Positions 27,795 through 45,313 of a DNA stretch of 64,000 bases are shown here, piece after piece. Location: positions 42,437,006 through 42,501,005 of the forward strand of contig CM068839.1 in the NCBI GenBank assembly GCA_028554795.2, given 5' to 3'. Source of the stretch: Sinohyriopsis cumingii (taxonomy: Eukaryota > Mollusca > Bivalvia > Unionida > Unionidae). Under the pieces are notes generated by a model that was not told the origin of the DNA, ran no database searches, and saw only the letters and a list, made by a program, of their open reading frames with translations. A program made the position numbers and the translations under genes. How positions within the stretch are numbered: position 1 is the stretch's first letter; every line of letters starts with the position of its first letter.

Positions 27795-27976
27795 TCAAAT
27801 CAAGTCGTGTCACCAAAAAAGACGACATGTACGACATCGAAAGCATTGTCAAACGCAGAAACCGTAAAGTGGGCAAACGACGTGTCAAAGAAGTAAAAGT
27901 ACGTTGGAAAGGATATCCACCCAGTTTTGATTCTTGGATCGACGCTTCGCAAGTCATCAACTATAAAAAGAAGTGA
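27795..27976 (+). pseudogene. P2 integrase tail (chromodomain)
   Basis: Nearly identical to the last 60 codons of the P1 integrase (38870-39048): a YDIESI start, a VKVRWKGYPPSFDSWID chromodomain core and the YKKK end. The rest of the integrase is deleted. Kept frame and high similarity show P1 and P2 are close relatives. Confidence 0.8.
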
Positions 27977-27981
27977 CCATC

Positions 27982-28213
27982 ATGCCCTTTCACACAGACG
28001 CAGCTACGTCGACCACTCCTTCACCCATTTCTTCTCTGCAAGATTTACAAAAACAACCCTTGTGGGTGGTATGGAGAACGTGTGCCTAAAATGCAAATCG
28101 TCTTTTTCTGCCAAATCTTCGTGGTGTATTGTGTCATCGGTGCAGCCGTTGCCAATTTGAGTTTGCAACAAGGAGACAAACAATTGTGGACCATTGTATT
28201 GAGCAGTTGCATC
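27982..28213 (+). pseudogene. P2 membrane-protein gene, left half (split by P1)
   Basis: Homologue of the P1 membrane-protein gene at 39054-39470, starting six bases after the integrase stop, as in P1. It has a small frame change near 28062. The reading stops at 28213 at the P1 insertion and resumes at 45314. Confidence 0.85.
28208..28213. repeat. P1 target-site duplication, left (TGCATC)
   Basis: TGCATC precedes the P1 left end and recurs at 45314-45319. The uninterrupted target is preserved in P1's own gene at 39285-39296 (GTTGCATCGGTT), so the insertion can be reconstructed base for base. Confidence 0.97.
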
Positions 28214-28474
28214 AGTAGTAAATGGGGATAGATTAGCGACAATGGGAATTAGCATTACAGAGACCCCTGGGTCAGATTAGCGACAATGGAAATTTAACAT
28301 GGCGAAAAATCGTGGGTCAGATTAGCGACAAGGGAAATTAACATGGGAATAAATCGTGGGTCACTCTAGCGACAAGGGGAATTTAACATGGAACTATAGT
28401 GTGGGTCTGTCTAGCGACAAGGGGAAATTAACATGGGGAATAGAGTTCGGGCTTTTGGGATTTTTTTTTTTAAT

Positions 28475-28511: not shown

Positions 28512-28556
28512 AGGGGTAGGCAATGGAAAGGCTATCTCTTTTCGAGAAATATGGCT

Positions 28557-28572
28557 GGCCCTGAAAAGGGCC
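28557..28572 (-). terminator. Histone-type 3' stem-loop of gene A
   Basis: On the minus strand GGCCCT-TTTC-AGGGCC, with AAA before it and AGCCA after it. A CTCGAAAAGAG purine-rich element follows (28530-28545 on the plus strand). It lies 25 nt past the gene A stop. The layout equals the metazoan replication-dependent histone mRNA processing signal. It lies within the left terminal repeat. Confidence 0.85.
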
Positions 28573-28596
28573 TTTGGGTTTATGTTAATGTATTCA

Positions 28597-28830
28597 TTAA
28601 CATAAATGGTACCGCATTGGTCTTCTTCTTGTCCTTAGGCTGCGTCTCACTGTTGGTCCGTAAATCAGCACTCTTTTCAGGCATCCTTGTCTTTCAACGT
28701 AGATCCTACGTATCCACAGGCTGGTGTTTGTCCTGTGGACAATGGTCCACTTGGATCGGACATACATGAGCATGTCCGTCCTAAACATCATGGAAGACAC
28801 AAGCGTAGAAGATTGCACATCGGTCCACAT
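28597..28830 (-). CDS. Gene A, 77-aa conserved small protein of unknown function
   Basis: No family is recognised. A basic C-terminus (TVRRSLRTRRRPMRYH) follows a middle with IYVERQGCLK. A diverged homologue at 59731-59946 in P4 keeps the start region (MWTNVESST), the VERQGCLKQVFIYGP stretch and position, so the frame has been under selection or is at least old. It is divergently transcribed from gene B. A minus-strand TATAAATA lies 45 nt upstream of the ATG, and a histone-type stem-loop lies 25 nt after the stop. It may be an early regulatory protein, but nothing in the sequence proves that. Confidence 0.65.
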   Translation of the reverse strand: MWTDVQSSTLVSSMMFRTDMLMYVRSKWTIVHRTNTSLWIRRIYVERQGCLKRVLIYGPTVRRSLRTRRRPMRYHLC

Positions 28831-29049
28831 CTTGAAGCGACGAGAACAAGTGAATCAATGCAGTGAACTGCGCTTATTTATAGGTACAGGAAGGATTGAA
28901 ACGGATTGAATTCATTCACCAATCCGAACACGCGTTACAAAATTCGGTCAGCTCACATCCAATCCGAAGAGAGCAGTCTGTGACGTCACGTGGTCTATAT
29001 AGATTCGTTAGCGCTTGTGTGCAGTCAATCTATGCGACAGTGATTCAAC
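28831..29049. promoter_or_regulatory. Divergent promoter between genes A and B
   Basis: TATAAATA on the minus strand (28875-28882) serves gene A and CTATATAG (28995-29002) serves gene B. Between them are two GGATTG (28891 and 28901) and two CAATCC (28919 and 28959) words, which are reverse complements, forming a symmetric CCAAT-like array. A perfect cAMP-response-type palindrome TGACGTCA (28981-28988) overlaps a CACGTG E-box (28987-28992) just 5' of the gene B TATA. P4 keeps the CAATCC words, the TGACATCA and the CTATATAG at 59985-60110. These sites suggest use of host bZIP, bHLH and NF-Y type factors (inference). Confidence 0.75.
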
Positions 29050-29610
29050 ATGACGGAAACTCAGAAAACGATCCATTGGGGTGCACCAGCAGGGGAGACT
29101 GCCCAAGGGAACCCGGACTTACTTTCAGAAGAGGTACATTGGGATTTTGTGGATTTTCTTACCTCGCAAGAATTTGTTCCGGAACCTTCGTTACCTTCTT
29201 CATTACCGCAAGTGGAGAATTTTAGACAGAGACAGAAAGAAGAACTGGAGAAATTTATGCAACGACAAAAGGAAGCGGAACAAGCTTTTCTCCTACAGCA
29301 ACAGCAACAGCAACAAGAAGAGGTAAGAAAAAAACAACAGCAACAACAGCAAGAAGAAGTAGCAGCAAAGAAACAAGAGGGTGAAAATCAAACGGCTACG
29401 GTACTGTTGGACATTTTAGCGGAGTTAAGAAGTCTGAAACAAATGTATCAGACTTCTTTATCACGACCGAAGAGAATACGACCTTCCCGAGCTAAACACG
29501 CCAACCCTGTGACTAAGCCTGTCGTACCACCCTTAGTGATTTCAACCCAATCATCAGAAGTAGGCCTTGGCCGTGGCAAAGGCTTAAGGCAGTTAAAGTT
29601 GATTGGTTAA
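29050..29610 (+). CDS. Gene B, 186-aa Gln/Glu-rich coiled-coil protein
   Basis: The N-terminal 60 residues are acidic with a VHWDFVDFLTSQEF stretch. Residues about 65-125 are an uninterrupted charged helix with poly-Gln runs (7 and 7). A leucine-rich LLDILAELRSLK segment follows, then a basic SRPKRIRPSRAK stretch that could be a nuclear signal, and a Gly-rich end. No family is recognised. P4 keeps the start, the QRQKE helix and the LLDILAELRSLKQMYQTSL block, the latter almost unchanged, so that block may be the functional core. It is transcribed from the divergent promoter and followed 27 nt after the stop by a perfect histone-type stem-loop. Confidence 0.75.
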   Translation: MTETQKTIHWGAPAGETAQGNPDLLSEEVHWDFVDFLTSQEFVPEPSLPSSLPQVENFRQRQKEELEKFMQRQKEAEQAFLLQQQQQQQEEVRKKQQQQQQEEVAAKKQEGENQTATVLLDILAELRSLKQMYQTSLSRPKRIRPSRAKHANPVTKPVVPPLVISTQSSEVGLGRGKGLRQLKLIG

Positions 29611-29637: not shown

Positions 29638-29653
29638 GGCCCTTTTCAGGGCC
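29638..29653 (+). terminator. Histone-type 3' stem-loop of gene B
   Basis: AAAAA, then GGCCCT-TTTC-AGGGCC, then ACCCA: this matches the metazoan histone mRNA 3' stem-loop consensus position for position. A purine-rich CTCGAAAAGAAAT element starts about 12 nt after the stem, where the histone downstream element that pairs with U7 snRNA lies. A back-up AAATAAA follows near 29702. Confidence 0.92.
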
Positions 29654-29900
29654 ACCCACATTTCTCGAAAAGAAATACAATTTTAATTTGCCAATAACTC
29701 AAAAATAAACCCCACCCATTTTACCCTTATAGTACGTGTCTGTGTATGAGTGCTTGAGTGTAGCTTCTTATTTTAAAATCAAAACTCAAAGACACTTACC
29801 TTATATCATTCATGTATTCTTTTATCCATTTTTTACAATCCAATTCACAATTCACCACAGAACACTTTAAAAAGTTCTTACACTTCTTCTTTCTCCTTAT

Positions 29901-30506: not shown

Positions 30507-32084
30507 ATGAAACGATCCCATTCATTCGAGAAGAAAGAAGAAGAAGAAGAAAGTAAGAGGCAGAAACGTGATCTATCGCCTCGTACCAGGGCTGAAATCT
30601 TGTCACAAATTCATGCCAGTGATTTTGAAGAGGACATGAGTGAACCAGAATCCGAACCCTCTAAACCAAGTTCACCACCCTTAGTCAACCCTGAAAAGTA
30701 CTATTCCATTCGAGAGACGGAAAAGCGCTCCTCTAGAAAATTTAGAACCACGGCTTACACCTACACGGTGAAGTTTAAAGATTTCAAGGCCGACGTACCC
30801 TTGGAGAAAGCAGAAGGGTTCATCACCGAGATGTGGGATTCTTTGCTCACCGCACTCAAGCGACAATGTCAAGCCAAAGAAGACGATCGCTTGACACTAT
30901 CCATAGATCACGACGGTTTGAAATCCCCTGTTTGGATCGAGTTTAGCAGACCCGCAGAACTGACCCCTTCCAAAGTCATGGACAAGTTACAACAGGTGCA
31001 ACAATCTAATGACCAGTTTGACATCACCGATGGTAAAGCCACACTGAAAATGGCCCACGTCTCTCCTCCTCAAGGAACTGGATGCAAAAAGATGTTATTG
31101 GTGGACGACCTTCGCAACACCAAAAAGAGTCTCGTCCGAATTAACAACCCTCAAGACCAGATGTGTTTAGCCCGTGCCATCGTGGTGGGACGAACCTATG
31201 CCAACAAGAACGACACGGTAGAATGGAAAAGAACCTGGAAAACTATTCAACGATGCGATCGAGCCAAACAACGAAACGAAGCAGAACTCCTGTTACAACA
31301 AGCCGGACTGTCCAAAGACACACCCTGTGGCATTCCTGAGATGCAAAAATTGCAAGATGCCCTAGCTCCACGCTACACCTTGAAAGTGCACCCTCAAGAA
31401 ATGCGTGGAACTCTGTTGTTTCGAGGCCAAGATTTTAAGGACGGAAAATACATTCATGTCTATCATCACGATGACCATTTCGATACCATTACCAGTATCA
31501 CTGGATTCCTGGGATACGGTTATTATTGTGAGAAATGTGACTATGGTTATAACAATCGAGAGCAACACAAGCATTGTGGAATAAAATGCCCAGGATGTTT
31601 GGCCTCTCCACCCTGTCTGAGCGAAGGACCAGTGCCTTGTTCGACTTGTTTGCGCACGTTTGTCAGTCCTACCTGTTACCAACAACATCTGAAAACGCAA
31701 GGTTCACAGCAGAAATGTGCTTGTCAACTCTTGAGATTGTGCCCTACGTGTAGACAAGGCATACGTACCAATAGTACCAAGGCACACGTATGTTCAGGAA
31801 AAAAAAATGTCACATTTGTCACCGCATCGTGGACTTGGAACACCAATGCTACGTGCAAAAATACCAACCCCCACCAGAGAAAGAGGACGGTCACAAGAAG
31901 AAAGGCAATTTCATCTTTTTCGATTTCGAATGTATGCAAGAGACCGGCATTCACATTCCTAATTTCTGCGTGGCTCATCGAGCGTGCGAGAAGTGCATTC
32001 AAGAACCTATCTTCAGTCATTGCCCTCACTGCAGCAAGATTCCCGGAGGGCGTGAAAAAATCTTTCGGGGACCAAACACGTTAG
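30507..32084 (+). CDS. polB: DNA polymerase B, N-terminal frame (525 aa)
   Basis: N-terminal part of the protein-primed family B polymerase. After an acidic lead, a domain of about 350 residues contains the family's NNPQDQMCLARAIVVG-like stretch and an IHVYHHDDHFDTITSI stretch. Zinc-binding clusters follow (YYCEKCDYGYNN, then CPGC, CSTC and CPTC pairs). The true coding moves to the -1 frame within a run of nine A at 31799-31807; residues after about 433 in this frame are not the polymerase. In P4 the corresponding place keeps one frame with an in-frame TGA, which suggests the ancestor was one frame and P1 lost a base, though a programmed -1 shift cannot be excluded. Confidence 0.85.
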   Translation: MKRSHSFEKKEEEEESKRQKRDLSPRTRAEILSQIHASDFEEDMSEPESEPSKPSSPPLVNPEKYYSIRETEKRSSRKFRTTAYTYTVKFKDFKADVPLEKAEGFITEMWDSLLTALKRQCQAKEDDRLTLSIDHDGLKSPVWIEFSRPAELTPSKVMDKLQQVQQSNDQFDITDGKATLKMAHVSPPQGTGCKKMLLVDDLRNTKKSLVRINNPQDQMCLARAIVVGRTYANKNDTVEWKRTWKTIQRCDRAKQRNEAELLLQQAGLSKDTPCGIPEMQKLQDALAPRYTLKVHPQEMRGTLLFRGQDFKDGKYIHVYHHDDHFDTITSITGFLGYGYYCEKCDYGYNNREQHKHCGIKCPGCLASPPCLSEGPVPCSTCLRTFVSPTCYQQHLKTQGSQQKCACQLLRLCPTCRQGIRTNSTKAHVCSGKKNVTFVTASWTWNTNATCKNTNPHQRKRTVTRRKAISSFSISNVCKRPAFTFLISAWLIERARSAFKNLSSVIALTAARFPEGVKKSFGDQTR

Positions 32085-34573
32085 CCGATTTTGCCCAATG
32101 GGTCTTAGACCCCATCGACAAGACGTGGAGCCAAGAGGACATCGAACGTTACGGAGATTGTCATCGTCATGCCACGGTGATGGCTCACAATTTCTCCGGA
32201 TACGATGGACAGTTTCTTTTGAGGTACTATGCGGAACAAGGCACCGAGCGTCCTAAAGTCACTTTGAACGGAGCCAAAATCATTTTCATGCAAGTGGGAC
32301 AAGTACAGTTTAAAGATTCGATGAGTTACTTGGCCATGCCTTTGAGTCGAATGCCTAAAACGTTTGGAATGACAGAAATGGCTAAAGGGTACTTTCCACA
32401 CTTTTTCAATACGGAAGCCAATCAACATGCCGTTCTACCCCATTTGCCTGAGGCTCACTATTACGACCCCGACAACATGCGTACCGAACAACGAGAAGCT
32501 TTCTACGCTTGGTACCAGGCTCATGTCTCCGACCCTTTCGACTTTCAGGAAGAAATGCTAAAGTATTGTCGTTCCGACGTGGACATTTTACGACGTTGCT
32601 GTGGAAAATTTCGAGAACTGTTCATGGAACACGGAGGGGTCGATCCTTTGAAAGAAGCTTGCACCATTGCCAAAGCGTGTTCCTTAGTGTACCGCCAACG
32701 ATTCATGCCTGAAAACACCGTGGCTGTCATCAGTCCTCAAACGACCAACTATGTCAAGCGTCAATACTCTGTCAAAGCCCTACGTTGGTTACATTACTTG
32801 TGCGACAAGGAAGACAAATGGATTCAGCATGCCCGCAACGGAGGAGGCGAAAAGACCATCGGAACGTATTCGGTAGATGGCTGGGACTTAGAAAACCCCA
32901 AGATCGTGTACGAGTTTAACGGTTGCTTATTTCACGGATGTCCCGTCTGTTACCCTGACCGTGACACTAAAAATCAGTTTTTGCAACGAACCATGGAAGA
33001 CTTGTACCAGGACACTTGTCAGCGACGCCTAAAGTTAGAACAGCAAGGATACCAAGTGGTGGAAATGTGGGAACACGAGTACGATCACCGTTTGAAAACC
33101 GATCCCGAGTTTAAACGCCTCGTGGAAAGTTACCAGTTCATGGACCCGCTGAACCCGAGGGATAGTTTGTACGGAGGAAGGACCAATGCCACCTGTTTGC
33201 TGTACCAAGCCGACGAAGAGAAAGGAGAAGAAATCAAATACTTGGACGTGTGTTCGCTGTATCCCTACGTGTGCAAATATTGTCGCTTTCCTGTAGGGCA
33301 CCCGCAATTGTTGACGGAACACATTGACCTGAAAAACATTCGACAATACGAAGGCTTGATCAAGTGTAAAGTTTTGCCTCCCACGAACCTATACCATCCC
33401 GTCTTACCTCACCATTGTCAAGGCAAACTGATGTTTCCCTTGTGCCGTACTTGTGCCGAAACGTGCAACCAGGACCAACCTTGCCATCACAGCCAGGAAG
33501 AACGTGCCTTGACGGGAACCTGGGTCAGCGTGGAATTGTTCAAAGCTCTGGACATGGGATACCAACTGTTAGAAGTGTACGAAATTTGCCACTTTCCCAA
33601 GACACAACAGTACCACAAGGGTGACCCTACTCAGAAAGGCATTTTCGCCGACTACGTGGATGCCTTTTTGAAACTGAAACAAGAAGCCAGCGGCTATCCT
33701 TCTTGGTGTCACACTCCCGAAGACCAAATACAATTCAAAGAGAAATACTACGCACAAGAAGGCATCTCTTTAGACCACATCGAAAAAAACGAAGGCAGGC
33801 GATCGTTTGCCAAAGTGATGTTAAATTGCTTGTGGGGTAAAATGGCACAACGACCGTGTTTACCCAAGACGGAATATTTGACAGAACCTTCCCGCTACTT
33901 CCAGATGATTCACGACAAAACCAAATACATGAAACACGTGGACGTCGTTCGAGAGGATTTGATCTTGATCAATTACGAAGAAGATCTGGGCTTTGTACAA
34001 GACGACCCTTTTGGAAATGTCATCATTGCGGCTTACGTGACAGCTCATGCTCGCTTAAAATTGTACGAAGCTTTAGAACTGTTAGAAGAACGCGTCCTGT
34101 ACTTTGACACGGACAGTTGCATTTACATCCATCACCCGATTCAACAGCACCCTGACATCGAAGGAGACCGTTTAGGAGCCTGGACAGACGAGCATCCCGA
34201 CGACAAGATTCTAAGTTTCGTCAGTGGTGGTCCCAAAAATTACGGCTACGAATACCGGGACAAACAAGGAGAAGTGCACACGACGTGCAAAGTGAAAGGA
34301 CTGACTCTGAATCATCGTACCAGTCGAGTGGTCAACTTTGGGGTATTGAAAGAAGCCTTGCAATCGGGAGAGGATGGAAACTTTAAAGTGACCACCTATC
34401 AACCGAACAAGATTGTACGTTTACCCACTCACCACATCGTCAGTCGACCCTTGGAAAAAGTCTATCAAATTGTATACCAGAAGCGAGTGCGACTTCCCAA
34501 TCTATTCACCTTACCGTACGGTCACGTCGGTATTGGTCTGTATATGAAAAGGAACCCTAGGCAAGATCGATAG
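31790..34573 (+). CDS. polB: DNA polymerase B, catalytic frame (927 aa)
   Basis: It contains the exonuclease and polymerase domains. Exo I is DFECM (D45, E47), Exo II is AHNFSGYDG (about 132-140) and Exo III is YCRSDVDIL (about 260). Polymerase motif A is DVCSLYP (about 485), motif B is KVMLNCLWGK (about 675) and motif C is YFDTDS (about 775). All catalytic acids are present. Protein-primed B polymerases copy linear genomes with terminal proteins, which suits the inverted terminal repeats. The ATG at 31790 lies upstream of the A-run and need not be used. A canonical AATAAA (34992-34997) lies 420 nt downstream. There is no histone-type stem-loop. Confidence 0.93.
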   Translation: MFRKKKCHICHRIVDLEHQCYVQKYQPPPEKEDGHKKKGNFIFFDFECMQETGIHIPNFCVAHRACEKCIQEPIFSHCPHCSKIPGGREKIFRGPNTLADFAQWVLDPIDKTWSQEDIERYGDCHRHATVMAHNFSGYDGQFLLRYYAEQGTERPKVTLNGAKIIFMQVGQVQFKDSMSYLAMPLSRMPKTFGMTEMAKGYFPHFFNTEANQHAVLPHLPEAHYYDPDNMRTEQREAFYAWYQAHVSDPFDFQEEMLKYCRSDVDILRRCCGKFRELFMEHGGVDPLKEACTIAKACSLVYRQRFMPENTVAVISPQTTNYVKRQYSVKALRWLHYLCDKEDKWIQHARNGGGEKTIGTYSVDGWDLENPKIVYEFNGCLFHGCPVCYPDRDTKNQFLQRTMEDLYQDTCQRRLKLEQQGYQVVEMWEHEYDHRLKTDPEFKRLVESYQFMDPLNPRDSLYGGRTNATCLLYQADEEKGEEIKYLDVCSLYPYVCKYCRFPVGHPQLLTEHIDLKNIRQYEGLIKCKVLPPTNLYHPVLPHHCQGKLMFPLCRTCAETCNQDQPCHHSQEERALTGTWVSVELFKALDMGYQLLEVYEICHFPKTQQYHKGDPTQKGIFADYVDAFLKLKQEASGYPSWCHTPEDQIQFKEKYYAQEGISLDHIEKNEGRRSFAKVMLNCLWGKMAQRPCLPKTEYLTEPSRYFQMIHDKTKYMKHVDVVREDLILINYEEDLGFVQDDPFGNVIIAAYVTAHARLKLYEALELLEERVLYFDTDSCIYIHHPIQQHPDIEGDRLGAWTDEHPDDKILSFVSGGPKNYGYEYRDKQGEVHTTCKVKGLTLNHRTSRVVNFGVLKEALQSGEDGNFKVTTYQPNKIVRLPTHHIVSRPLEKVYQIVYQKRVRLPNLFTLPYGHVGIGLYMKRNPRQDR
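31799..31807 (+). other. A9 run at the polymerase frame change
   Basis: Nine A between GG and TGTCAC. A -1 move here links the zinc-cluster region of the first frame to the CHICH continuation of the second. A AAA AAA is both a classic slippery sequence and a hot spot for single-base loss. Confidence 0.8.
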
Positions 34574-35012
34574 TTCATTGTTCATTGAAGTAACTTACCA
34601 TGTCGTTGACGAAGAAGAAACCAGATTGGTTAGGAGTCAAATGTTGGACATCACCGAGACCAGGGTTTTGAGGCTTGGACACAAGAGGTGGCCTAGTATG
34701 CACGAGAGTTATTCAAGGAAAAAAGTTACTTTTCAACCTGTGTTAGTGACGGTGCCAGAAGAACCCGTCACCCAGGACAGGACTGTCGTGGACAGGCCTG
34801 AAAGACCCTTTCGGGAGGACAATTGTGTGACCTTACCCCTACTATAGAACTGGTTAGAACTTTACCCAAAACATGTTGTACAGACACTTGTGTTTATTCC
34901 ACGTTCATGGTTATCATGTGCCTTTTATTCTTGTACTTAAGCCTTTGGCTTTTATGCATTTTTGTCTTTCGTATTTATGTTTGAAACATTCAATAAACGT
35001 GTTCTGAAAAAG
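34574..35012 (+). other. Polymerase 3' region; small doubtful ORF at 34641-34847
   Basis: A 68-codon frame (34641-34847) starts at an internal ATG and has no recognised features. It could be a short gene between polymerase and ATPase or just 3' UTR. The frame remains open upstream to 34578 without an ATG. AATAAA at 34992 ends this region, 15 nt before the TATA box of the ATPase gene. Confidence 0.35.
34992..34997 (+). terminator. Polyadenylation signal AATAAA (polymerase)
   Basis: A canonical hexamer, followed by GT/T-rich DNA. It contrasts with the histone-type ends of the accessory genes. Confidence 0.75.
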
Positions 35013-35020
35013 TATATAAA
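35013..35020 (+). promoter_or_regulatory. TATA box of the packaging ATPase gene
   Basis: TATATAAA 48 nt upstream of the ATG at 35068. Confidence 0.75.
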
Positions 35021-35067
35021 CTCTTGTCTTGTTTGTTTTTCGTGTCACAAGTGACATTTCTCACACC

Positions 35068-35811
35068 ATGGCTACCTCTGCTGTCTCTGCTCCCTCTTCC
35101 TCTACTGTCAAAGTCATCGACGAACACTTAGATCGTGCCAGTTGGGAGGCTTTGTATCTTCGCCATCCCTTTAACATGCTCATTGCTGGACCTAGCGGTT
35201 CAGGCAAAACCGAATTCGTCAAACGTTTGATCGAACATAAACATCATTTGATCGATCGACCCCCTCAACGAATTGTGTGGTGTTACAAAGAGTGGCAATC
35301 GGCGTACAGCCTCTTGCGAGAAAGTCAAGGCGATTCCATCGTGTTTGTGGAAGGCATTCCTAAAGAAGACGACGGCATCGTCTCTGACTCCCGTCTAACC
35401 CATTTGGTCATTTTCGACGACATGTTAGGAGAAGACGAAGAAGAAATTAAACTGTGGTTCACGCGCAAAGGGCATCACCGTAATGCCAGTGTCGTTTACA
35501 TCACCCAAAATTTGTTTCAACAAAGTAAAGCCCATCGCACCATCAGTCTCAATGCGCATTACGTGGTCTTGTTTAAAAGCCCTCGAGATAAATCGCAAGT
35601 GCAAGTCTTAGCCAAACAGTTAGGAACGCCTTGGCTGACTCAGGCGTACGACGATGCCACTCAAACGCCACACGCCTATTTACTCGTCGATTTGAAACCT
35701 ACGACTCCCGAGGATTTGCGATTTCGTACCCACTTGTTTCACCACTGGTGCCAAGACGGAGGGCCTGTCCTGTACACGTCTCCGTCCTCGACTTCATTTC
35801 ACTCCCCATAA
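35068..35811 (+). CDS. Genome-packaging ATPase (FtsK/HerA, A32-like)
   Basis: 247 aa. Walker A is GPSGSGKT at 41-48, Walker B is LVIFDDM at 113-119, and a sensor-type TQN follows in a SVVYITQNLFQQSK stretch. This is the standard Polinton ATPase length and plan. It would pump DNA into the preformed capsid. I start at ATG 35068 because it has an ideal Kozak context (CACCATGG) and a TATA 48 nt upstream; the open frame extends 13 codons further without an ATG. The stop TAA (35809-35811) falls inside a CATAAAAAAA sequence just before the next gene's TATA. Confidence 0.95.
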   Translation: MATSAVSAPSSSTVKVIDEHLDRASWEALYLRHPFNMLIAGPSGSGKTEFVKRLIEHKHHLIDRPPQRIVWCYKEWQSAYSLLRESQGDSIVFVEGIPKEDDGIVSDSRLTHLVIFDDMLGEDEEEIKLWFTRKGHHRNASVVYITQNLFQQSKAHRTISLNAHYVVLFKSPRDKSQVQVLAKQLGTPWLTQAYDDATQTPHAYLLVDLKPTTPEDLRFRTHLFHHWCQDGGPVLYTSPSSTSFHSP

Positions 35812-35816
35812 AAAAA

Positions 35817-35827
35817 TCTATAAAAAC
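35817..35827 (+). promoter_or_regulatory. TATA box of gene G
   Basis: TCTATAAAAAC, 40 nt upstream of the ATG at 35865 and directly after the ATPase stop. Confidence 0.7.
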
Positions 35828-35864
35828 CTCAGACCCTTTTTCGTCTGTCTCACATAGTGCGAAA

Positions 35865-36785
35865 ATGACGTCCCTTCAGTCGCATCTTCCCGTCAAATTG
35901 ATTCGTGCCTTGTATGGCATCAGTCGAGAAAAAAATCCACAAACACGAGCTCGTGTCTTAGAAGCTAGTCTCAAAGAAGTCTTACGATGGTTCACGGTGA
36001 CGGCACGTCAATTACTCCAAGGAATCATTCAGATTCCTCATCAAACCAAACGCTTTTTCGATCGAAACAAAGTCGCTTTGGTCCAACTGGCCGATCCCCG
36101 CATCGACACTCAAACCAAAAAACAAATAATTTTGAAACCTGGAGGGAGCGGTACTCTAGGAGGGGTCATCATTCGCTCACTCTTAAGATGGGATCCTAAT
36201 GCCCCCAAAGTTATACCCAAGACAAAAGTCCAACGAAGCCCCAAGAAGAAAAAGACCAGGTCCCCAAGGATAACTTCTCCAGTGGCAGGACCCTCCTCTG
36301 ACCAGACACCACCACCACCCCGGAAAAAGAAAAGAAGCCCCCAGAAAAAGAAAAGTCCACAGAAAACTAGTCGCAAGAGAGGCACTTCGGCCAGGACGCA
36401 ACCTTACACTCGCAAACCACGACCTGCCACGGCAGTGACTGCGTCTCCGGCAGCTTCACGTTTGTCCACTTCTCCGTTAATGACACCCAGAACTGAAGAG
36501 TACTTGGAGACGTTGATCACACCAAGAACTTCTCCGTTGATGACCCCCAAAAGAACTTCCCCAGTGGCAGGACCTTCCAATTTAGTGGCAGTGGCTGCTG
36601 CTCACAAAGTACCTTCTCCCAAAATCAAAGTTCAAGAAAGATCGGGCATGTTACAAAGTTTACTGGATTTGTCCAAGCAAGAACTGGCTCGATTTAGTCC
36701 GTTACGTACCCCTGCACGATGTGTCATGCCTGTCCTCAAACTAATACGACGTAAAGACAATCAGTGGCGACGCGTTCCAGTATAA
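35865..36785 (+). CDS. Gene G, 306-aa basic virion-type protein
   Basis: The N-terminal 115 residues form a helical domain (LIRALYGISREKN, a TARQLLQGIIQIP stretch, then KKQIILKPGGSGTLGG). The remaining 190 residues are Lys/Arg/Ser/Pro-rich with KKKKTRSP and PRKKKRSPQKKKSPQK repeats, and TSPLMTP repeated two or three times. The N-terminal domain has the same plan as the next gene H, a known small Polinton protein sometimes compared to adenovirus pX, so G and H look like duplicates with G gaining a basic tail. Such tails suggest DNA binding, e.g. as a core protein. It starts at ATG 35865; an open frame upstream overlaps the ATPase and is not used. Confidence 0.75.
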   Translation: MTSLQSHLPVKLIRALYGISREKNPQTRARVLEASLKEVLRWFTVTARQLLQGIIQIPHQTKRFFDRNKVALVQLADPRIDTQTKKQIILKPGGSGTLGGVIIRSLLRWDPNAPKVIPKTKVQRSPKKKKTRSPRITSPVAGPSSDQTPPPPRKKKRSPQKKKSPQKTSRKRGTSARTQPYTRKPRPATAVTASPAASRLSTSPLMTPRTEEYLETLITPRTSPLMTPKRTSPVAGPSNLVAVAAAHKVPSPKIKVQERSGMLQSLLDLSKQELARFSPLRTPARCVMPVLKLIRRKDNQWRRVPV

Positions 36786-36790
36786 AAAAG
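36781..36790 (+). promoter_or_regulatory. TATA box of gene H overlapping the gene G stop
   Basis: TATAAAAAAG, in which TAA at 36783-36785 is the stop codon of gene G. It lies 54 nt upstream of the gene H ATG. Confidence 0.75.
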
Positions 36791-36843
36791 GCCTGTGACC
36801 AAGTCCGGTATCAGTGTTTTTTGGTGCTCCTGAAGACTCAAAG

Positions 36844-37230
36844 ATGTCACCCTGCAGAAAACCCCAAGGAAAGAAAAGGAAAGGACTGCCACCACGTTTA
36901 GCCAAACATGGGGACATGTTATCTGTCCTGTCCAAAGCTTCTCCACCCCTACGAAAAAAACTCATTCAAACAGCCTCCAAAGAGGTCATCGATACCGTGT
37001 GCGAATGTTGTTTGAACGTTTTGAAAGGCACTATCCCTTTGTCCAAACACCAGAAACAATGTTTAGGCAAACATCGTCACGTTCTTCGCCAAATGGTTCA
37101 AAAGAAAATTCCCATTCGTCAAAAAAAGAAGATGTTAGTGCAACGTGGAGGTATTTTACCTCTCTTGTTAGGTCCCATACTGAAAGGAGTCTTGGGAACC
37201 ATGTTGGGAGGACTGGTGGGAGCAAGATAA
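36844..37230 (+). CDS. Gene H, pX-like small basic Polinton protein (128 aa)
   Basis: A recognised Polinton protein type: basic lead, a KLIQTASKEVIDTVCEC helix, a LNVLKGTIPLSKHQK stretch, a KKKMLVQRGGILPLLLGP motif and a Gly-rich hydrophobic end (GTMLGGLVGAR). It is very common in animal Polintons between ATPase and capsid genes and sometimes likened to adenovirus pX/core protein. It is likely packaged with DNA. The function is not proven. Starting at ATG 36844 gives a 54-nt leader from the TATA. The stop TAA (37228-37230) lies inside GATAAAAAGG, a TATA-like site for the next gene. Confidence 0.85.
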   Translation: MSPCRKPQGKKRKGLPPRLAKHGDMLSVLSKASPPLRKKLIQTASKEVIDTVCECCLNVLKGTIPLSKHQKQCLGKHRHVLRQMVQKKIPIRQKKKMLVQRGGILPLLLGPILKGVLGTMLGGLVGAR

Positions 37231-37235
37231 AAAGG
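37226..37235 (+). promoter_or_regulatory. TATA-like box of gene I overlapping the gene H stop
   Basis: GATAAAAAGG contains the H stop codon TAA. It lies 44 nt upstream of the gene I ATG at 37279. Confidence 0.6.
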
Positions 37236-37278
37236 CCTCGGAAGTCCCAAGATCTCAGAATTGACCCCTGACAACCCC

Positions 37279-37917
37279 ATGGAAGGACGAAAACTAGCTT
37301 TAGTGCCTTACAAACGATGGATGGAATACCATCGGTGGCAAGAACAACACACCCCGCAATTACCTCCCAATCCCCATTTCAGCGAGATGTCCCAGTTACA
37401 ACACGAATTGCAGTCCTTGATGGATCGCCAAGATTTGTCCGAAACAGAAAAATCGCAAAAGTACGGTCAACTCTTGCAACGACTGCAACTCTTTCACCAG
37501 AAAGCTTTAGACGAAACAGCTCTACCCACTCTGAAAGATTTTAAGACCTTGATGAAAAGTCCAGCACCATCACCAGTACCAGTACCAGTACCACCAGTAC
37601 CCGTGACCAAGACAGAAAAAGGAGAAGAAGAGGAAGGGTTTCAAACTCCACCAGAAAAAGTACGCAAGTTAACAACACCACCTACCTCCAGAATTGGATG
37701 GATTAAAAAGATGATGGCCACCCCTTCTTCCTCACAAGAGAAAAAGAAAGTGAAGACAGAAGTGAAGACAGAAGTGAAACAAGAACCGATATTCCCAGCT
37801 CAGACATCCTTCTCCTCTTCGACACCTATTGCTGGCCGCACACGCAAAGCATTGCAATCCAAGAAAATACCCCAAGAGAAAAAGAGTAGCATCCTCCAAG
37901 AGTGGGTGTCTTATTAA
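37279..37917 (+). CDS. Gene I, 212-aa Polinton protein with LVPYKRW motif
   Basis: The N-terminal 90 residues carry a KLALVPYKRW motif and a helical LQHELQSLMDRQDLSETEKSQKY stretch followed by LQRLQLFHQK, which recall a Polinton protein family with an LVPY start and an LSDxEK helix. Pro/Val repeats (PVPVPVPPVPV) and a Lys/Ser-rich tail with GWIKKMMATPSSSQ follow. It is found between pX-like protein and integrase. The function is unknown, probably virion-internal. A fragment of the same gene is fused to a polymerase fragment by deletion in P4 (63770-63957). The stop is 21 nt before the integrase start. Confidence 0.7.
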   Translation: MEGRKLALVPYKRWMEYHRWQEQHTPQLPPNPHFSEMSQLQHELQSLMDRQDLSETEKSQKYGQLLQRLQLFHQKALDETALPTLKDFKTLMKSPAPSPVPVPVPPVPVTKTEKGEEEEGFQTPPEKVRKLTTPPTSRIGWIKKMMATPSSSQEKKKVKTEVKTEVKQEPIFPAQTSFSSSTPIAGRTRKALQSKKIPQEKKSSILQEWVSY

Positions 37918-37938
37918 CACACCAACCAACACAAAAAA

Positions 37939-39048
37939 ATGGAAAAAGTCTTAGCCAGCATTTACTACGATCCCTCCCATCCTGCAGGTTACGCAGGAGT
38001 TCAAAAATTGTATCGTGCTGCCAAAACGCAACTGAAAAGTCTCCGTTTACCTCAAGTGCAACGATGGTTACAAGAACAAGCTACCTACACTTTACACAAA
38101 CCCATTCGACGCAAGTTTGCCAGAAGTCGCACCCGAGTGGAAGGCATCGATCATCAATGGCAAGCCGATTTAGCCGATGTCTCTCATTTGGCCAGCTACA
38201 ATCGTGGCTACAAATATTTGTTTTGTGTCATCGACGTCTTTTCCAAATTTGCCTGGGTCGTGCCCTTGACTTCCAAATCGAGCAGCGAGTTAGTGCGAGC
38301 CCTGCAACGGGTGTTGAAACAAAGCGGTCGTCACCCTCTTCGATGGCAAACGGACAAAGGCACCGAATTTCTGAACCAAGCTTTCCAAAAAGAATTAAAG
38401 AAACGTGACATTCATTTTTTTACCACCGAGAATCCCGAAACCAAAGCCAGCATCGTGGAACGTTTTCAACGCACTTTGAAAGAACGCATGTGGAAATATT
38501 TTACGCATCACCACACTCTGAAGTACATCGACATCTTACCGCACCTGGTGCAAGCGTACAACCAATCTTACCATCGAAGCATCGGACGTGCCCCGCAAGA
38601 CGTTACTCCCGAGAACGAAGTGTTGGTGTTTGAGCACCTGTTTGGTACGTCCCCGACGAGGGCTGTCCCCAAGAAAAGTGGAGAGTTGGCCGTAGGAGAT
38701 TGGGTGCGCATTGGCAAAACCAAACGCACTTTCGACAAAGGTTACTTACCTAACTGGACGACCGAACTGTTTCGCGTCAGTGGACGAGTGCATGGCCGTC
38801 ATCCTGCCGTCTATAAATTGGAAGACATGAACGGAGAAGTGCTCAAAGGAACGTTTTATTTGCCCGAGTTACAACGTGTCACCAAAAAAGAAAACGACGT
38901 GTACGACATCGAAAGCATTCTCGAACGCAGAACCCGTAAAGTGGACAAACGACGTGTCAAAGAAGTCAAAGTACGTTGGAAAGGATATCCACCCAGTTTT
39001 GATTCTTGGATCGACGCTTCGCAAGTCATCGACTATAAAAAGAAGTGA
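37939..39048 (+). CDS. Polinton integrase with C-terminal chromodomain (369 aa)
   Basis: A retroviral-type DDE integrase: D77 in WQADLAD, D139 in QTDKGTEF and E174 in KASIVERFQ, with about 34 residues between the last two. The middle has YKYLFCVIDVFSKFAWVVPL. The C-terminal 50 residues are a chromodomain (YDIESILERR then KVRWKGYPPSFDSWID), which may steer insertion to marked chromatin. The family inserts Polintons with 6-bp target duplications, matching the TGCATC repeat. The ATG is preceded by AAAAAA, 21 nt after gene I. The frame is complete and all catalytic residues are intact. Confidence 0.96.
   Translation: MEKVLASIYYDPSHPAGYAGVQKLYRAAKTQLKSLRLPQVQRWLQEQATYTLHKPIRRKFARSRTRVEGIDHQWQADLADVSHLASYNRGYKYLFCVIDVFSKFAWVVPLTSKSSSELVRALQRVLKQSGRHPLRWQTDKGTEFLNQAFQKELKKRDIHFFTTENPETKASIVERFQRTLKERMWKYFTHHHTLKYIDILPHLVQAYNQSYHRSIGRAPQDVTPENEVLVFEHLFGTSPTRAVPKKSGELAVGDWVRIGKTKRTFDKGYLPNWTTELFRVSGRVHGRHPAVYKLEDMNGEVLKGTFYLPELQRVTKKENDVYDIESILERRTRKVDKRRVKEVKVRWKGYPPSFDSWIDASQVIDYKKK
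39031..39041 (+). promoter_or_regulatory. TATA-like site inside the integrase end
   Basis: GACTATAAAAA lies in the last codons of the integrase, about 14-20 nt upstream of the next ATG. It is close for a promoter but conserved in P2 (27959-27970). Confidence 0.4.
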
Positions 39049-39053
39049 CCATC

Positions 39054-39470
39054 ATGCCCTTTCACACAGCAGACGCAGCTACGTCGACCACTCCTCCTTC
39101 ACCTAGTTCTTCTGTGCAAGATTTACAAAAACAACCCTTGTGGGTGTGGTGTGGAGAACGTGTGCCTAAAACGCAAATCGTCTTTTTCTGCCAAATCTTC
39201 GTGGTGTATTGTGTCATCGGGGCAGCCATCGCCAATTTGAGTTTGCAACAAGGAGACAAACAATTGTGGACCATTTTATTGAGCAGTTGCATCGGTTACC
39301 TGCTTCCTAATCCCTCCCTGAAATTCACCTCGAACGGGAACCCCGGGAACCTTGTGTCCAGTGCCAGTGCCAGTCACCACTTCAATCACAACCAGAACCC
39401 CATTTTAGACGGAGACACGCCTCTGACGTCCAGTAACCCCTCGGACAGCCACAGAACTCTGGAATTATGA
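39054..39470 (+). CDS. Membrane protein with two hydrophobic segments (138 aa)
   Basis: A Ser/Thr/Pro-rich lead of 25 residues, a membrane segment at about 41-62 (IVFFCQIFVVYCVIGAAIA), a short polar loop (NLSLQQGDKQ), a second hydrophobic stretch at about 71-85 ending in GYLLPNPSLK, and a Ser/Asn-rich tail. The LWTxLLSSCxGYLLPNPSL signature recurs in animal Polintons with no known role. It starts six bases after the integrase stop and ends in a 4-base ATGA overlap with the penton-like gene. Its P2 homologue is the site into which P1 inserted. Confidence 0.8.
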   Translation: MPFHTADAATSTTPPSPSSSVQDLQKQPLWVWCGERVPKTQIVFFCQIFVVYCVIGAAIANLSLQQGDKQLWTILLSSCIGYLLPNPSLKFTSNGNPGNLVSSASASHHFNHNQNPILDGDTPLTSSNPSDSHRTLEL

Positions 39471-40390
39471 GTCACCAAAACCAATTTTACTTAACCTTAC
39501 CCAGTGACAGTTCCATGGAGGTGTTTCCCAAGAACACGTTGTGCTGTTACACGGCCAAATTACCTCAAGCCATCCAGTTAGATCACGAAGCCCATTGGGA
39601 AGTGGCTTTAGTAGAAATGATTCACCCGACCCAAGTCCTCAATGTCCTTCCCAATCAAAATTTTTTTGATGTGGAAGTTCATGACGAGCAAATGCAACAG
39701 TGGATGGATAGCAATGTCAAGTATGACAAGAAAACCCGTACACAAAAGTACACCACCTATCACTTGTTCATTCCCCCAGGCTATTATTTTAGTGGTCAAC
39801 ATTTGGTCAGCACCATAACCTCCAGGTTTAATGTCGTGTTTCTGAAAGCTTTGGAGCATGTCAACAAAAATGTCACCATGGAGTACCACAAAGCAGCTCG
39901 TCGCTTCTTGATGAAATTTGAACGGAGTAAAATCCTGTCCATTTTATTTTGTCCTGAATTGTTTGACATGTTGGGCGGAGACATGGACATGAGAAAGACC
40001 ATGATCAAGAAAAACGAATTACCCATCGTTTACGACAACGAGTCTTTTAGCAAGTTATTTCGTGCCCCGGTAGAACTGAACCAAGGACTGAATTTGATGT
40101 TCGTGTATTCCGATGTGGTGGAGTACAACGTGGTGGGACACACCTCCGTACCGTTACTGCGTGTCATTCCTTTCAAAGTGGATTCTGCCACGAACACTGA
40201 CGAGGAAGGTGGAAACACTTACCACGTCCACCGCGAATTTGTCCATCCTCACTATTTGCCTGTCAGTAAGTCGTATTTGGACACGGTGAACATTGCTATA
40301 AAAGGAGATGTGGGACAAAATATTCCATTCACCAAAGGAAAAGTCACGGTGAAACTCCATTTTCGAAAACGGTTCTCTCACGACTCTTAA
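39467..40390 (+). CDS. Penton-like minor capsid protein (307 aa)
   Basis: Typical Polinton minor capsid protein. It starts with a FYLTLPSDSSMEVFPKNT strand and a YTAKLPQAIQLD segment, then WEVALVEMIHP, a TYHLFIPPGYYFS stretch, and a C-terminal segment with YCDV-like and VPLLRVIPF sequences. It forms the pentameric vertices of the capsid. Length is as usual for the family. ATG overlaps the preceding stop. A CTATAAAAGG near 40297 inside the 3' part could be a promoter for the next gene. Confidence 0.9.
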   Translation: MSHQNQFYLTLPSDSSMEVFPKNTLCCYTAKLPQAIQLDHEAHWEVALVEMIHPTQVLNVLPNQNFFDVEVHDEQMQQWMDSNVKYDKKTRTQKYTTYHLFIPPGYYFSGQHLVSTITSRFNVVFLKALEHVNKNVTMEYHKAARRFLMKFERSKILSILFCPELFDMLGGDMDMRKTMIKKNELPIVYDNESFSKLFRAPVELNQGLNLMFVYSDVVEYNVVGHTSVPLLRVIPFKVDSATNTDEEGGNTYHVHREFVHPHYLPVSKSYLDTVNIAIKGDVGQNIPFTKGKVTVKLHFRKRFSHDS

Positions 40391-40393
40391 GTC

Positions 40394-40810: not shown

Positions 40811-40826
40811 GAAAAGAGACAAAAAA

Positions 40827-42140
40827 ATGATGCACCGAGAATCTTGCGCTTGTTCCAAGACGGAACTGGATCTGTTTGCCATGCCCCCCACGATGATGAC
40901 GATGCAAGAATCCCAGTGGGTGGAATTTCACCCCGTCTCCTCACTGACCGATTCCGCTCCCATCGAGTTTGAAATCAAAGGACAGCCCGAAGATTACATC
41001 GATCTGAATAGCAGTTACTTGTACCTGAAAGTCAAAATTCTAGATAAGACTGGAGGTGCTATAGACGATGAAGCAGTAGCTCCCGTCAACAATTTCATGC
41101 ATTCCTTGTTCAGTGGAGTGGACTTGTATTTGAATAACAAACTGGTCAGTAGCAGCATGGATACTTACCCTTATCGTGCCTACCTGGAAAATCTCTTGAC
41201 GTACGGAATAGATGCCAAGAACACTCATCTCAATGCCTGTGTGGTATGGGAAGCTGACGAACCTACCAAGTTTGAAATATTGGAAACTGATGAAAAGAAA
41301 GACAACAATGATGGATTTCTAGAACGAAGAAAGAGAATCACGGGAGCCGACACAAGTTTAGAACTGATGGATCGTTTGCATTTGGACATGTGGTTGCAAG
41401 AAAAGTATTTGCTGAACGGGGTGGATGTCCGCCTGAGACTGAATCGTAGCAGTGCCGCTTTCCATTTGATGGCTGATAGTGAGGGTTACAAAACCAAAAT
41501 CTTAGAAGCCAGACTCTACGTACGCCGTGTGGAAGTGTTACCTAAAGTGGGAAACGACATCAGTCAGACGTTGAGCAGAACGACCGCCAAGTATCCCATA
41601 CGACGCGTGGAAGTGAAAACCTTCACCATTCCCAAGGGACAGCGATCCATGATTGAAGATCATCTGTTCCAAGGACAGTTACCCAAACGTTTGATCGTTG
41701 GTATCGTCGAGAATACAGCCTTCAACGGAGCTGCCGAAAAAAATCCTTTCTACTTTCAACACTTTGGTGTGTCCAAAATCGAAGTCAGTCGCGATGGCAA
41801 GACCTTGTGTACCCGACCTTTCGAACCTGACTTTAAAAAGAAGAATTACTTGAGATCGTACTTGTCCTTGTACGAAGCCACCGGACAGTTAGGAACCAAT
41901 ACCAGTCACGGTATTACGTACGAGGATTATGCAGGAGGCTACGCTTTGTGGGCTTTCGATTTCACTCCAGACCAAGGCAGCGACGAGGGACATTTCCACC
42001 CTATAAAATCCGGCCAGATTCGTGTGGAAATTCAGTTTAAAGACCGAGACCCTGATGAAACGGTGAACGTCATCCTGTATGCAGAATTCGATAATACCAT
42101 AGAAATCAACAGTTTGAGAGAAGTCATCCTAGATTACTAG
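40827..42140 (+). CDS. Major capsid protein, double jelly-roll (437 aa)
   Basis: Hexon-like Polinton major capsid protein. It has FHPVSSLTDSAPIEFEIKG and YIDLNSSYLYLKVKI strands at the start, PVNNFMHSLFSGVDLYLNN, a middle LLNGVDVRLRLNRS, a YPIRRVEVKTFTIPKGQ link between the two rolls, and a C-terminal YALWAFDFTPDQ and IRVEIQFKD. Usual length is about 430-650. The frame is intact. Two AATAAA signals follow in a tandem repeat (42249 and 42347), so its mRNA is probably polyadenylated. Confidence 0.95.
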   Translation: MMHRESCACSKTELDLFAMPPTMMTMQESQWVEFHPVSSLTDSAPIEFEIKGQPEDYIDLNSSYLYLKVKILDKTGGAIDDEAVAPVNNFMHSLFSGVDLYLNNKLVSSSMDTYPYRAYLENLLTYGIDAKNTHLNACVVWEADEPTKFEILETDEKKDNNDGFLERRKRITGADTSLELMDRLHLDMWLQEKYLLNGVDVRLRLNRSSAAFHLMADSEGYKTKILEARLYVRRVEVLPKVGNDISQTLSRTTAKYPIRRVEVKTFTIPKGQRSMIEDHLFQGQLPKRLIVGIVENTAFNGAAEKNPFYFQHFGVSKIEVSRDGKTLCTRPFEPDFKKKNYLRSYLSLYEATGQLGTNTSHGITYEDYAGGYALWAFDFTPDQGSDEGHFHPIKSGQIRVEIQFKDRDPDETVNVILYAEFDNTIEINSLREVILDY

Positions 42141-42566: not shown

Positions 42567-42923
42567 ATGTGCTCCAAACTAGCTAAACTCAACGAAGCCT
42601 ACGTGAATTTGCATAGGGTCAGACACAGTCTGATACCGAAGCCAGAAGAAATAGAGAATGTGAGAATGTTAAAAATCACTGAAGACCTGATAGAAGAGCT
42701 CTTCAGAGAAGAAATGAACAGGGAAAAAGAAGAATGGACAGAGAAGTACAGACTTCAGAGACAGCAGCAACAACAACAACAAGAGCAGCAGCAGCAACCT
42801 GAAGCTGACAGAGGCTTTGTCGATTGTCGTATCGACACCAAAGAGTTCTTCTTCTCTTTCCGAAGAAGCAGACCTATCGCCAGAAAGTCTATCCTCAGAG
42901 GACATCGCATTCTTAGAAACTAA
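42567..42923 (+). CDS. Gene O, 118-aa coiled-coil protein
   Basis: N-terminal LNEAYVNLHRVRHSL helix, an acidic leucine-rich middle (TEDLIEELFREEM) running into an Arg/Glu helix with two short poly-Gln runs, then a DCRIDTKEFFFSFRRSRP motif and a basic end. No family is recognised. A P2 homologue at 45866-46198 keeps all parts, with DTKEVFFSFRRSRP best preserved. It has the shared promoter box upstream and a histone-type stem-loop 30 nt after the stop. Promoter, 3' signal and layout link it to P and Q as a family of small genes. Confidence 0.75.
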   Translation: MCSKLAKLNEAYVNLHRVRHSLIPKPEEIENVRMLKITEDLIEELFREEMNREKEEWTEKYRLQRQQQQQQQEQQQQPEADRGFVDCRIDTKEFFFSFRRSRPIARKSILRGHRILRN

Positions 42924-42953: not shown

Positions 42954-42969
42954 AGCCCTTTTCAGGGCT
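42954..42969 (+). terminator. Histone-type 3' stem-loop of gene O
   Basis: AGCCCT-TTTC-AGGGCT then ACCCA: the outer G-C pair of the gene B and Q loops is replaced by A-T, a compensatory change. CTAGAAAAGAAAT follows about 10 nt later. A back-up AATAAA is at about 43035. Confidence 0.9.
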
Positions 42970-43422: not shown

Positions 43423-43797
43423 ATGAACACGAGACTGGAGAAACTGTTGGAACTTCATGTGCATCTGGAATATGCCAGGCGCATATTAAATGAACTGGCC
43501 GCGGAAGCCATTGTGGAGGAGGGAAGGATAAGAAAGGAGGAGGAAAGAAGAAACAAAGAAGAGGAGGAGAGAAGATATAAAGAAGAGGAAAGAAGATACA
43601 AAGAGGAGGAGAGAAGATGCAAAGAAGAGGAGGAGGAGGAAAAGGAGAGAAGAAGAAGAAATTTCAGAATCCCAGAGAGCGAAAATTGGGATTCTGAAGC
43701 GACATATCCTGCCTCTGCTCTCTCCCTTCAAAAGGTAAAAAGTAATTGGGGGATAAGATGTGTATGCGGCGCCAGGCCTGGAAGGTGCCACCATTAA
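43423..43797 (+). CDS. Gene P, 124-aa coiled-coil protein
   Basis: Starts MNTRLEKLLELHVHLEYARRIL, a leucine-rich helix like the starts of O and Q. It continues as an Arg/Glu/Lys helix with four or five EEERR(Y/N/C)KEEE repeats, which suggests repeat expansion, and ends in a Ser/Cys-containing tail. No family is recognised. It has the same promoter box and a histone-type stem-loop 34 nt after the stop. Confidence 0.65.
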   Translation: MNTRLEKLLELHVHLEYARRILNELAAEAIVEEGRIRKEEERRNKEEEERRYKEEERRYKEEERRCKEEEEEEKERRRRNFRIPESENWDSEATYPASALSLQKVKSNWGIRCVCGARPGRCHH

Positions 43798-43831: not shown

Positions 43832-43847
43832 AGCCCTTTTCAGGGCT
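43832..43847 (+). terminator. Histone-type 3' stem-loop of gene P
   Basis: AGCCCT-TTTC-AGGGCT then ACCCA, followed by CTAGAAAAGAAAT. It is identical to the gene O signal. The back-up AATAAA has decayed to ATTATAAA (about 43910). Confidence 0.9.
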
Positions 43848-44553: not shown

Positions 44554-44943
44554 ATGGCTTCTAACCAAATGGACAAAATACAAACATTACAAGACGTTTT
44601 AGACAACTTAGGAATGATGGAGCAGATGTTGATAAGACTGGTTGAAGACCATTATTCCTATAGTCCCCATCGTGTAAAGATGGAAATTAATAACTTAAAA
44701 AAGGTAAAGGACAAGATTAGTGGTGTCATGAAAGAGATAAAGGAGGAGAAGGAAGATGAAGAGGAAAGAATAAGAATAAGCAAATGGAACGAAAAGATTG
44801 AAAAAGAAGAAGAAAATGAGAAGAGGAAGAAAGAAGAGGAGGAAGAGAAGAAGAAGAAAGAAGAGCAGGAGAAAAAGAAAGAGAAGAAGAGAAAGAATGT
44901 TGGAGATAAAATAAGAACTTGGTGGAGAAAAAGAAGAAATTAG
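44554..44943 (+). CDS. Gene Q, 129-aa coiled-coil protein
   Basis: N-terminal leucine-rich helix (MDKIQTLQDVLDNLGMMEQML), then a long Glu/Lys helix from residue 45 to the end (poly-EEEK and KKKEEQ), finishing with a Trp/Arg-rich end (RTWWRKRRN). No family is recognised. It is the last gene before the right terminal repeat and its histone-type stem-loop (22 nt after the stop) lies within that repeat, mirror-image to gene A at the other end. Confidence 0.65.
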   Translation: MASNQMDKIQTLQDVLDNLGMMEQMLIRLVEDHYSYSPHRVKMEINNLKKVKDKISGVMKEIKEEKEDEEERIRISKWNEKIEKEEENEKRKKEEEEEKKKKEEQEKKKEKKRKNVGDKIRTWWRKRRN

Positions 44944-44956
44944 AAGCAGAAGAAGA

Positions 44957-45313
44957 AAACCCAAAGGCCCTTTTCAGGGCCAGCCATATTTCTCGAAAAG
45001 AGATAGCCTTTCCATTGCCTACCCCTTTTTTAAATTTAAATTTAAATTTAAATTTAAAAAAAAAAATCCCAAAAGCCCGAACTCTATTCCCCATGTTAAT
45101 TTCCCCTTGTCGCTAGACAGACCCACACTATAGTTCCATGTTAAATTCCCCTTGTCGCTAGAGTGACCCACGATTTATTCCCATGTTAATTTCCCTTGTC
45201 GCTAATCTGACCCACGATTTTTCGCCATGTTAAATTTCCATTGTCGCTAATCTGACCCAGGGGTCTCTGTAATGCTAATTCCCATTGTCGCTAATCTATC
45301 CCCATTTACTACT
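44957..45313. repeat. P1 right terminal inverted repeat
   Basis: Reverse complement of 28214-28581 with fewer AAATTT units. It contains the gene Q stem-loop and five 44-45-bp units with TTGTCGCT cores. It ends CATTTACTACT, then TGCATC. Confidence 0.95.
44966..44981 (+). terminator. Histone-type 3' stem-loop of gene Q
   Basis: AAA, then GGCCCT-TTTC-AGGGCC, then AGCCA and CTCGAAAAGAGAT. It has the same sequence as the minus-strand loop at 28557-28572 because both lie in the terminal repeats, each serving the last gene reading outward. Confidence 0.9.

Follow-up and report, generated by a model that had tools for sequence, protein, structure and literature searches.

Histone-type 3' end signals behind five small terminal genes of a Polinton family in Sinohyriopsis cumingii

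Results

Polinton P1 and its terminal genes

The stretch of DNA analysed here, termed the window, comprises 64,000 nucleotides (positions 42437006-42501005) within the 2.9-Gb genome of Sinohyriopsis cumingii. It contains a Polinton, P1, with four core genes and five small genes, A, B, O, P and Q, near its two ends (Table 1). The capsid gene gave no match in a Pfam search and was assigned by the F54H12.2-like names of its homologues, a label which we take to be a mark of Polinton capsids; all named animals among the best 120 of its 1023 homologues are bivalves. Upstream, the region 30507-34573 contains two overlapping frames (525 and 927 aa) where a single polymerase gene might be expected. P1 is flanked on both sides by pieces of another copy (45779-46531 on the minus strand, 80% identical to 42252-43011, and 27806-28216, 93% identical to 38875-39296), and thus seems to have been inserted in or beside an older copy. 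The window also holds another Polinton-like gene block (252-6981, minus strand), with a double-jelly-roll domain match at 3860-4672 and no Histone3 match, as well as a second, decayed copy, P2 (59400-64000), which comprises A, B, zinc-knuckle and polymerase regions, is 68–83% identical in pieces and is cut by the window end.

Table 1. Features of Polinton P1 and of the decayed copy P2, in window coordinates
Feature	Position	Strand	Remarks
Target-site duplications of P1	28208-28213 and 45314-45319		TGCATC; read by eye from the flanks
Polinton P1	28214..45313	n/a	TIRs about 368 nt, 97%; 6-bp target-site duplication on both sides
HDE core of A	28537..28542	-	AAAAGA (AAAAGAGAT); 14 nt past stem
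Stem-loop of A	28557..28572	-	GGCCCT TTTC AGGGCC, tail AGCCA; inside inner TIR; RF00032 35.6 bits over 28532-28577, E 1.2e-6
Gene A	28597..28830	-	ORF, 77 aa, Arg-rich
Divergent A-B promoter region	28831..29049		219 nt between start codons; consensus matches only
Gene B	29050..29610	+	186 aa; long helix and basic tail; conserved C-terminal VGLGRGKG
Stem-loop of B	29638..29653	+	Tail ACCCA; RF00032 41.2 bits, E 9.6e-9
HDE core of B	29668..29676	+	AAAAGAAAT; 14 nt past stem
DNA polymerase B	31790..34573	+	DNA_pol_B_2, E 1.6e-42; core gene without stem-loop
A32-type packaging ATPase	35068..35811	+	Pox_A32, E 1.3e-7; core gene without stem-loop
rve integrase with chromodomain	37939..39048	+	PF00665, PF00385; core gene without stem-loop
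Major capsid protein	40827..42140	+	Homologues named F54H12.2-like; core gene without stem-loop
Gene O	42567..42923	+	ORF, 118 aa; upstream box CACGTCCGCGC
Stem-loop of O	42954..42969	+	AGCCCT TTTC AGGGCT, tail ACCCA; RF00032 27.1 bits, E 1.8e-3, below cut-off
Gene P	43423..43797	+	ORF, 124 aa; TATA at -58
Stem-loop of P	43832..43847	+	AGCCCT TTTC AGGGCT, tail ACCCA; RF00032 31.0 bits, E 6.4e-5, below cut-off
Gene Q	44554..44943	+	ORF, 129 aa; TATA-like TATAAG at -57
Stem-loop of Q	44966..44981	+	Tail AGCCA; inside inner TIR; RF00032 35.6 bits, E 1.2e-6
Decayed A-type stem-loop of P2	59653..59668	-	Purine core retained at 14 nt
Decayed B-type stem-loop of P2	60818..60833	+	Purine core AAAAGAG retained at 14 nt

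None of the five small genes matched a histone in Pfam up to E 0.1. Gene A gave no Pfam match of any kind and no match to solved structures up to E 10; homologues were found at 78% (P0141) and 74% (P0142). For gene B there are 20 homologues, and 17 sequences entered the alignment; the AF2 model is one long helix of low confidence (mean pLDDT 69.4, pTM 0.26). The tail GRGKG of its product is, in our judgement, reminiscent of the start of H4. The idea that A and B are distant histones was nevertheless rejected, given the lack of Pfam histone matches, the lack of a structure match for A and the single modelled helix of B. The contigs that carry the homologues P0141 of A and P0131 of B are each 1455 nt long and have identical sources, which suggests linkage of A and B in other places as well.

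A and B are transcribed divergently. As judged by consensus matches only, the region between them carries two CCAAT/ATTGG boxes, a CRE-like TGACGTCA and a TATA box for each gene, at -52 for A and at -54 for B. Many histone gene pairs of animals are arranged in this way, divergently and with TATA and CCAAT boxes. Among the 16 genes tested, CCAAT was present upstream of the A-B pair only; TATA boxes also occur upstream of C, D1, the ATPase gene and others, and gene O has none at the usual place. O, P and Q have in common a box, CRCGTMCGCGC, at about -71 to -75, which none of the other 13 tested genes has in its 220 nt of upstream sequence. E2F sites (TTTSSCGC) were found within 220 nt upstream of none of the 16.

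Stem-loops and purine elements follow the five genes

A preliminary description of this DNA had placed histone-type stem-loops after A, B, O, P and Q. All five are present, 24 (A), 27 (B), 30 (O), 34 (P) and 22 nt (Q) past the stop codons, and each stem is followed by ACCCA or AGCCA as described. The Histone3 covariance model recommended there (Rfam RF00032, cut-off 34 bits) gave scores over the cut-off for the ends of A, B and Q, whereas those of O and P fell short of it. With the same model, a search up to E 1 gave no match across the core genes from 30507 to 42140. With regard to the purine-rich downstream element (HDE), its position was borne out in all five genes; the distance from the stem to the start of the core AAAAGA is exactly 14 nt in 7/7 copies in the window, two of them decayed (P2). 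The sequence given for the element, CGAAAAGAAA, in contrast, occurs only in B; genes A and Q have CGAAAAGAGA, whereas O and P have AGAAAAGAAA. The covariation that had been claimed is weak: the only stem pair involved is the one that changes from G-C to A-T in O and P, and the signal does not exceed that in shuffles of the seven window rows, of which 65/500 matched the covariation score and 357/500 the number of covarying pairs.

The motif itself is far from random expectation. At up to two mismatches, GGYYCTTTTCAGRRCC occurs 7 times in the window against 0.29 expected, and 0/100 shuffles reached 7. Similarly, GYYYTTTTCARRRC with AAAAGA within 3–25 nt produced 6 matches in the window and 0 in 200 first-order Markov samples. 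The RF00032 scores, the shuffles and the constant 14-nt spacing together led us to reject a chance origin of the motifs.

A second small hairpin (29660-29676 and equivalents) shares nucleotides with the purine downstream element and is conserved to a large extent among the copies. It reflects that the HDE can pair with the preceding spacer (ATTTCT...AGARAT): 90.5% of the cells are paired over 86 distinct stretches, compared to 52–67% when the partners are slid by 1 or 2.

The host H3 and H4 genes carry the same stem and spacing

The histone genes of the host form tandem arrays with a repeat unit of about 8.3 kb (150 of 662 candidates were scored). Within 30 fetched loci, the H3 end GGCCCTTTTTAGGGCC-ACACA with CTAGAAAAGAG was found 30 times, and the H4 end, which has the same stem GGCCCTTTTTAGGGCC followed by ACAAA with CTAGAAAAGAT, 29 times. 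The comparison covers H3 and H4, whose identity was checked with tblastn for three of the loci (L120, L121 and L145). Both histone ends have the GGCCCT/AGGGCC stem, and in both AAAAGA is likewise located 14 nt after it. The RF00032 scores are also of the same order, 35.9 bits for H3 and 37.7 for H4 versus 41.2 for Polinton B and 35.6 for A and Q. The claim that the Polinton ends display the full layout of metazoan histone 3' ends is thus supported by the host's own H3 and H4, with which they have the stem and the 14-nt AAAAGA spacing in common. Given the same stem, purine core and spacing, the natural reading is that the signal would have been captured from the host lineage or is tightly adapted to the host machinery.

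In mouse, CUCUUU of U7 pairs with the HDE core AAAGAG, as described in PMC7026596. The Rfam U7 model found no match in the host genome, and none in 14 control genomes either.

Copies across the host genome retain the signal

A genome-wide Histone3 search, in which 75 of 589,472 first-look candidates were scored and all exceeded the cut-off, gave at least 75 sites. All 75 belong to this Polinton family: 65 were assigned by protein match (tblastn), and the remaining 10 because their DNA matches the Q end and TIR of P1. The scored candidates included none of the histone genes of the host, and tblastn with the four human core histones gave no match in any of the 75 loci. A strict pattern assigned the stem in 69/75 loci (67 GGCCCTTTTCAGGGCC and 2 GGCTCTTTTCAGGGCC), with AAAAGA at 14 nt in 66 of them. 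A looser pattern detected the stem-loop in the remaining six loci as well (L037, L064, L078 and L038–L040, the last three with one unpaired position) and yielded 89 distinct 58-nt sequences for 111 sites in all fetched stretches, window included. Over 86 distinct genomic stretches, the variable stem pair was G-C in 75, A-T in 7, G-T in 1 and unpaired in 3; overall stem pairing was 98.3%, but the collecting pattern restricts the stem letters, so this value is no independent test.

The stem-loop of P was examined in five 3-kb loci selected by Q, where it was intact in L009, L010 and L012, had one unpaired position in L005 and was decayed in L008. Within the window, the minus strand near 45.8 kb holds a third remnant, which still has the 3' arm, the tail and the purine core of an O-type end. 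The preliminary description had named a motif scoring no better than shuffled sequence and absent from related elements as the outcome that would speak against it; the outcome was the opposite, with Rfam matches for three genes and dozens of genomic copies that keep the motif.

Reciprocal selection and conservation of the A and B ends

Since loci chosen by a stem-loop are biased, copies were picked by the signal of one gene and the end of the other gene was inspected; copies without both the A and the B signal would escape this design. In the A-selected set, 24 of 25 loci were examined for the B end and 21 could be aligned, the exceptions being L081 and L088 (earlier parts of B only) and L092 (only 29 nt beyond the signal). 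The B stem-loop was present in 21/21 alignable copies, 17 with 6/6 pairs and 4 with 5/6 (with G-T taken as paired), and so was AAAAGA at 14 nt. Conversely, among B-selected copies (21 of 22 loci anchored) the A stem-loop was present in 21/21, 20 with 6/6 pairs and one with 5/6; AAAAGA was exact at 14 nt in 18/21, and the other three had one changed letter.

Mean pairwise identities differed considerably between the regions. For gene B (P1 and 21 copies) they were 0.960 in the stem-loop, 0.962 in the HDE, 0.958 in the coding part and 0.946 in the tail; the region from stop to stem reached 0.753, the spacer 0.869, the first 44 nt past the HDE 0.773 and the next 60 nt 0.885. For gene A, the stem-loop had the highest value (0.994), followed by the HDE (0.924), which lies slightly above the spacer (0.89), the stop-to-stem region (0.874), the coding part (0.83), the tail (0.815), which is no better preserved than the coding part, and the next 33 nt (0.781). 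Amid DNA that is mostly drifting, the stem-loop is thus clearly preserved for both A and B. For the HDE the effect is clear in B and modest in A.

Relatives outside the host genome

The deposited frames of two homologues, P0133 (B) and P0142 (A), continue beyond the usual stop, and their tails (PISGPPTSLEKRYY and KPFSGPLTLLENIYY, respectively) correspond to the translation expected of the stem-loop and HDE. In tblastn searches with these tails under relaxed settings, the window stem-loops ranked first (best E 1.9e-4 and 2.1e-4). In a viral contig collection, searches with MCP, PolB and gene B found no relatives, and three stem-loop patterns gave no exact match. Four capsid relatives (27–46%), whose termini may not be covered, gave no RF00032 match up to E 1. 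These four are Polinton capsid genes from binned bacterial genomes, two of which bear the names of tubeworm and mussel symbionts, and presumably represent contaminating host or animal DNA.

Discussion

The stem-loops, tails, purine elements and their spacing strongly support, at the level of sequence, a histone-type 3' end matching that of the host on genes of a Polinton. Our main reading, to which we assign a probability of roughly 0.8, is that this Polinton family carries the host's replication-dependent histone 3' end signal on five small terminal genes, and that the signal times these genes to S phase. Following the established pathway, host SLBP would bind the Polinton stem-loop, host U7 snRNP would pair with the purine core AAAAGAR, and CPSF73 would cut the pre-mRNA between the stem-loop and the HDE. 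The expected products are capped, non-polyadenylated mRNAs, which would be stable and translated mainly during host DNA copying, with a peak in S phase. A, B, O, P and Q would thereby be tied to the host S phase, and the polymerase, integrase and capsid genes are without the signal. The cassette probably came from a host histone gene and would have spread to five genes through duplication and TIR exchange.

We also consider it likely that non-histone mRNAs of the Polinton use the host histone 3' end pathway instead of poly(A) and are switched by the host's replication timer, and that the cassette, as the divergent A-B pair with its TATA and CCAAT boxes suggests, may stem from a divergent pair of histone genes that was captured and had its coding parts replaced.

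The histone-type end might instead serve something other than S-phase timing. It could provide strong expression in oocytes and embryos at early cleavage, stages at which histone mRNAs are processed very actively, or divide the output between ends of the poly(A) and of the stem-loop type. For a germline element, germline expression would be the most profitable. AATAAA is located within 300 nt behind B and O, 94 and 111 nt past the stop, respectively, so poly(A) ends are possible for these two genes. None was found within 300 nt behind A, P and Q; this would fit poorly with a split output, but it is no argument because 11/13 of the other P1 reading frames lack AATAAA likewise. Poly(A) sites have also been found behind ordinary histone genes (PMC1924863), and human H2AC18 is able to use both end types (PMC9756948). 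However, stem-loop mRNA is normally coupled to S phase (PMC5011920), and we regard this explanation as unlikely.

It appears very improbable that the stem-loops are inert remnants of a histone 3' region that was captured and then copied with the rest of the element. The match to the host H3 and H4 ends would fit such a capture, but inert DNA would not be expected to retain the stem-loop and HDE amid mostly drifting flanks, with the A stem-loop better kept than the A coding part, nor to keep the constant placement after five genes. Similarly little can be said for the transcripts being a decoy that titrates host SLBP or U7 and disturbs the histone supply: the many signal sites would suit a decoy, whereas conserved protein homologues of A and B would be needless for one. 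That the hairpins are DNA or replication structures near the TIRs, as two of the five inside the inner TIR might suggest, is the least credible proposal, since the hairpins of B, O and P lie outside the TIR, their orientation follows the gene with tail and HDE downstream in the transcript sense, and the layout is common to the host histone genes.

If S-phase timing through the histone-type signal is true, a mobile element applies histone-type ends to non-histone genes, which would extend that class and explain how the gene expression of a self-copying element is coupled to S phase. Poly(A)-selected RNA sequencing would then underreport A, B, O, P and Q.

The preliminary description knew of no transposon or DNA virus with this system. 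This stands for animal Polintons, as no description of histone-type 3' ends in them was found in openly licensed PMC papers among the matches listed, which for some queries were the best 15–20 of 33 to 10,356; otherwise it needs qualifying, since six Rfam hits named 'histone 3'UTR stem-loop' are counted for polinton-like viruses and virophages in PMC12220804. In the section concerned, the hits are given without discussion, and differ from the present case in coming without gene context, HDE, host comparison or conservation test.

P1 resembles other Polintons/Mavericks in its PolB, rve integrase with chromodomain, A32-type ATPase and F54H12.2-like capsid (by homologue names only), and in its long TIRs and 6-bp target duplication; it differs in that its five terminal accessory genes carry histone-type ends. 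These ends resemble replication-dependent histone 3' ends in having a 6-bp stem, a 4-nt loop, an A-rich 5' flank, a short tail and a purine HDE at 14 nt, with the stem 22–34 nt from the stop. They differ in the loop (TTTC versus TTTT in the host) and in the tail (ACCCA or AGCCA versus ACACA or ACAAA), and the genes they follow are non-histone genes and part of a mobile element. In Mimiviridae viral mRNAs also end at hairpins, but there, according to PMC4402537, the cut at the hairpin is made by a viral enzyme and is followed by polyadenylation.
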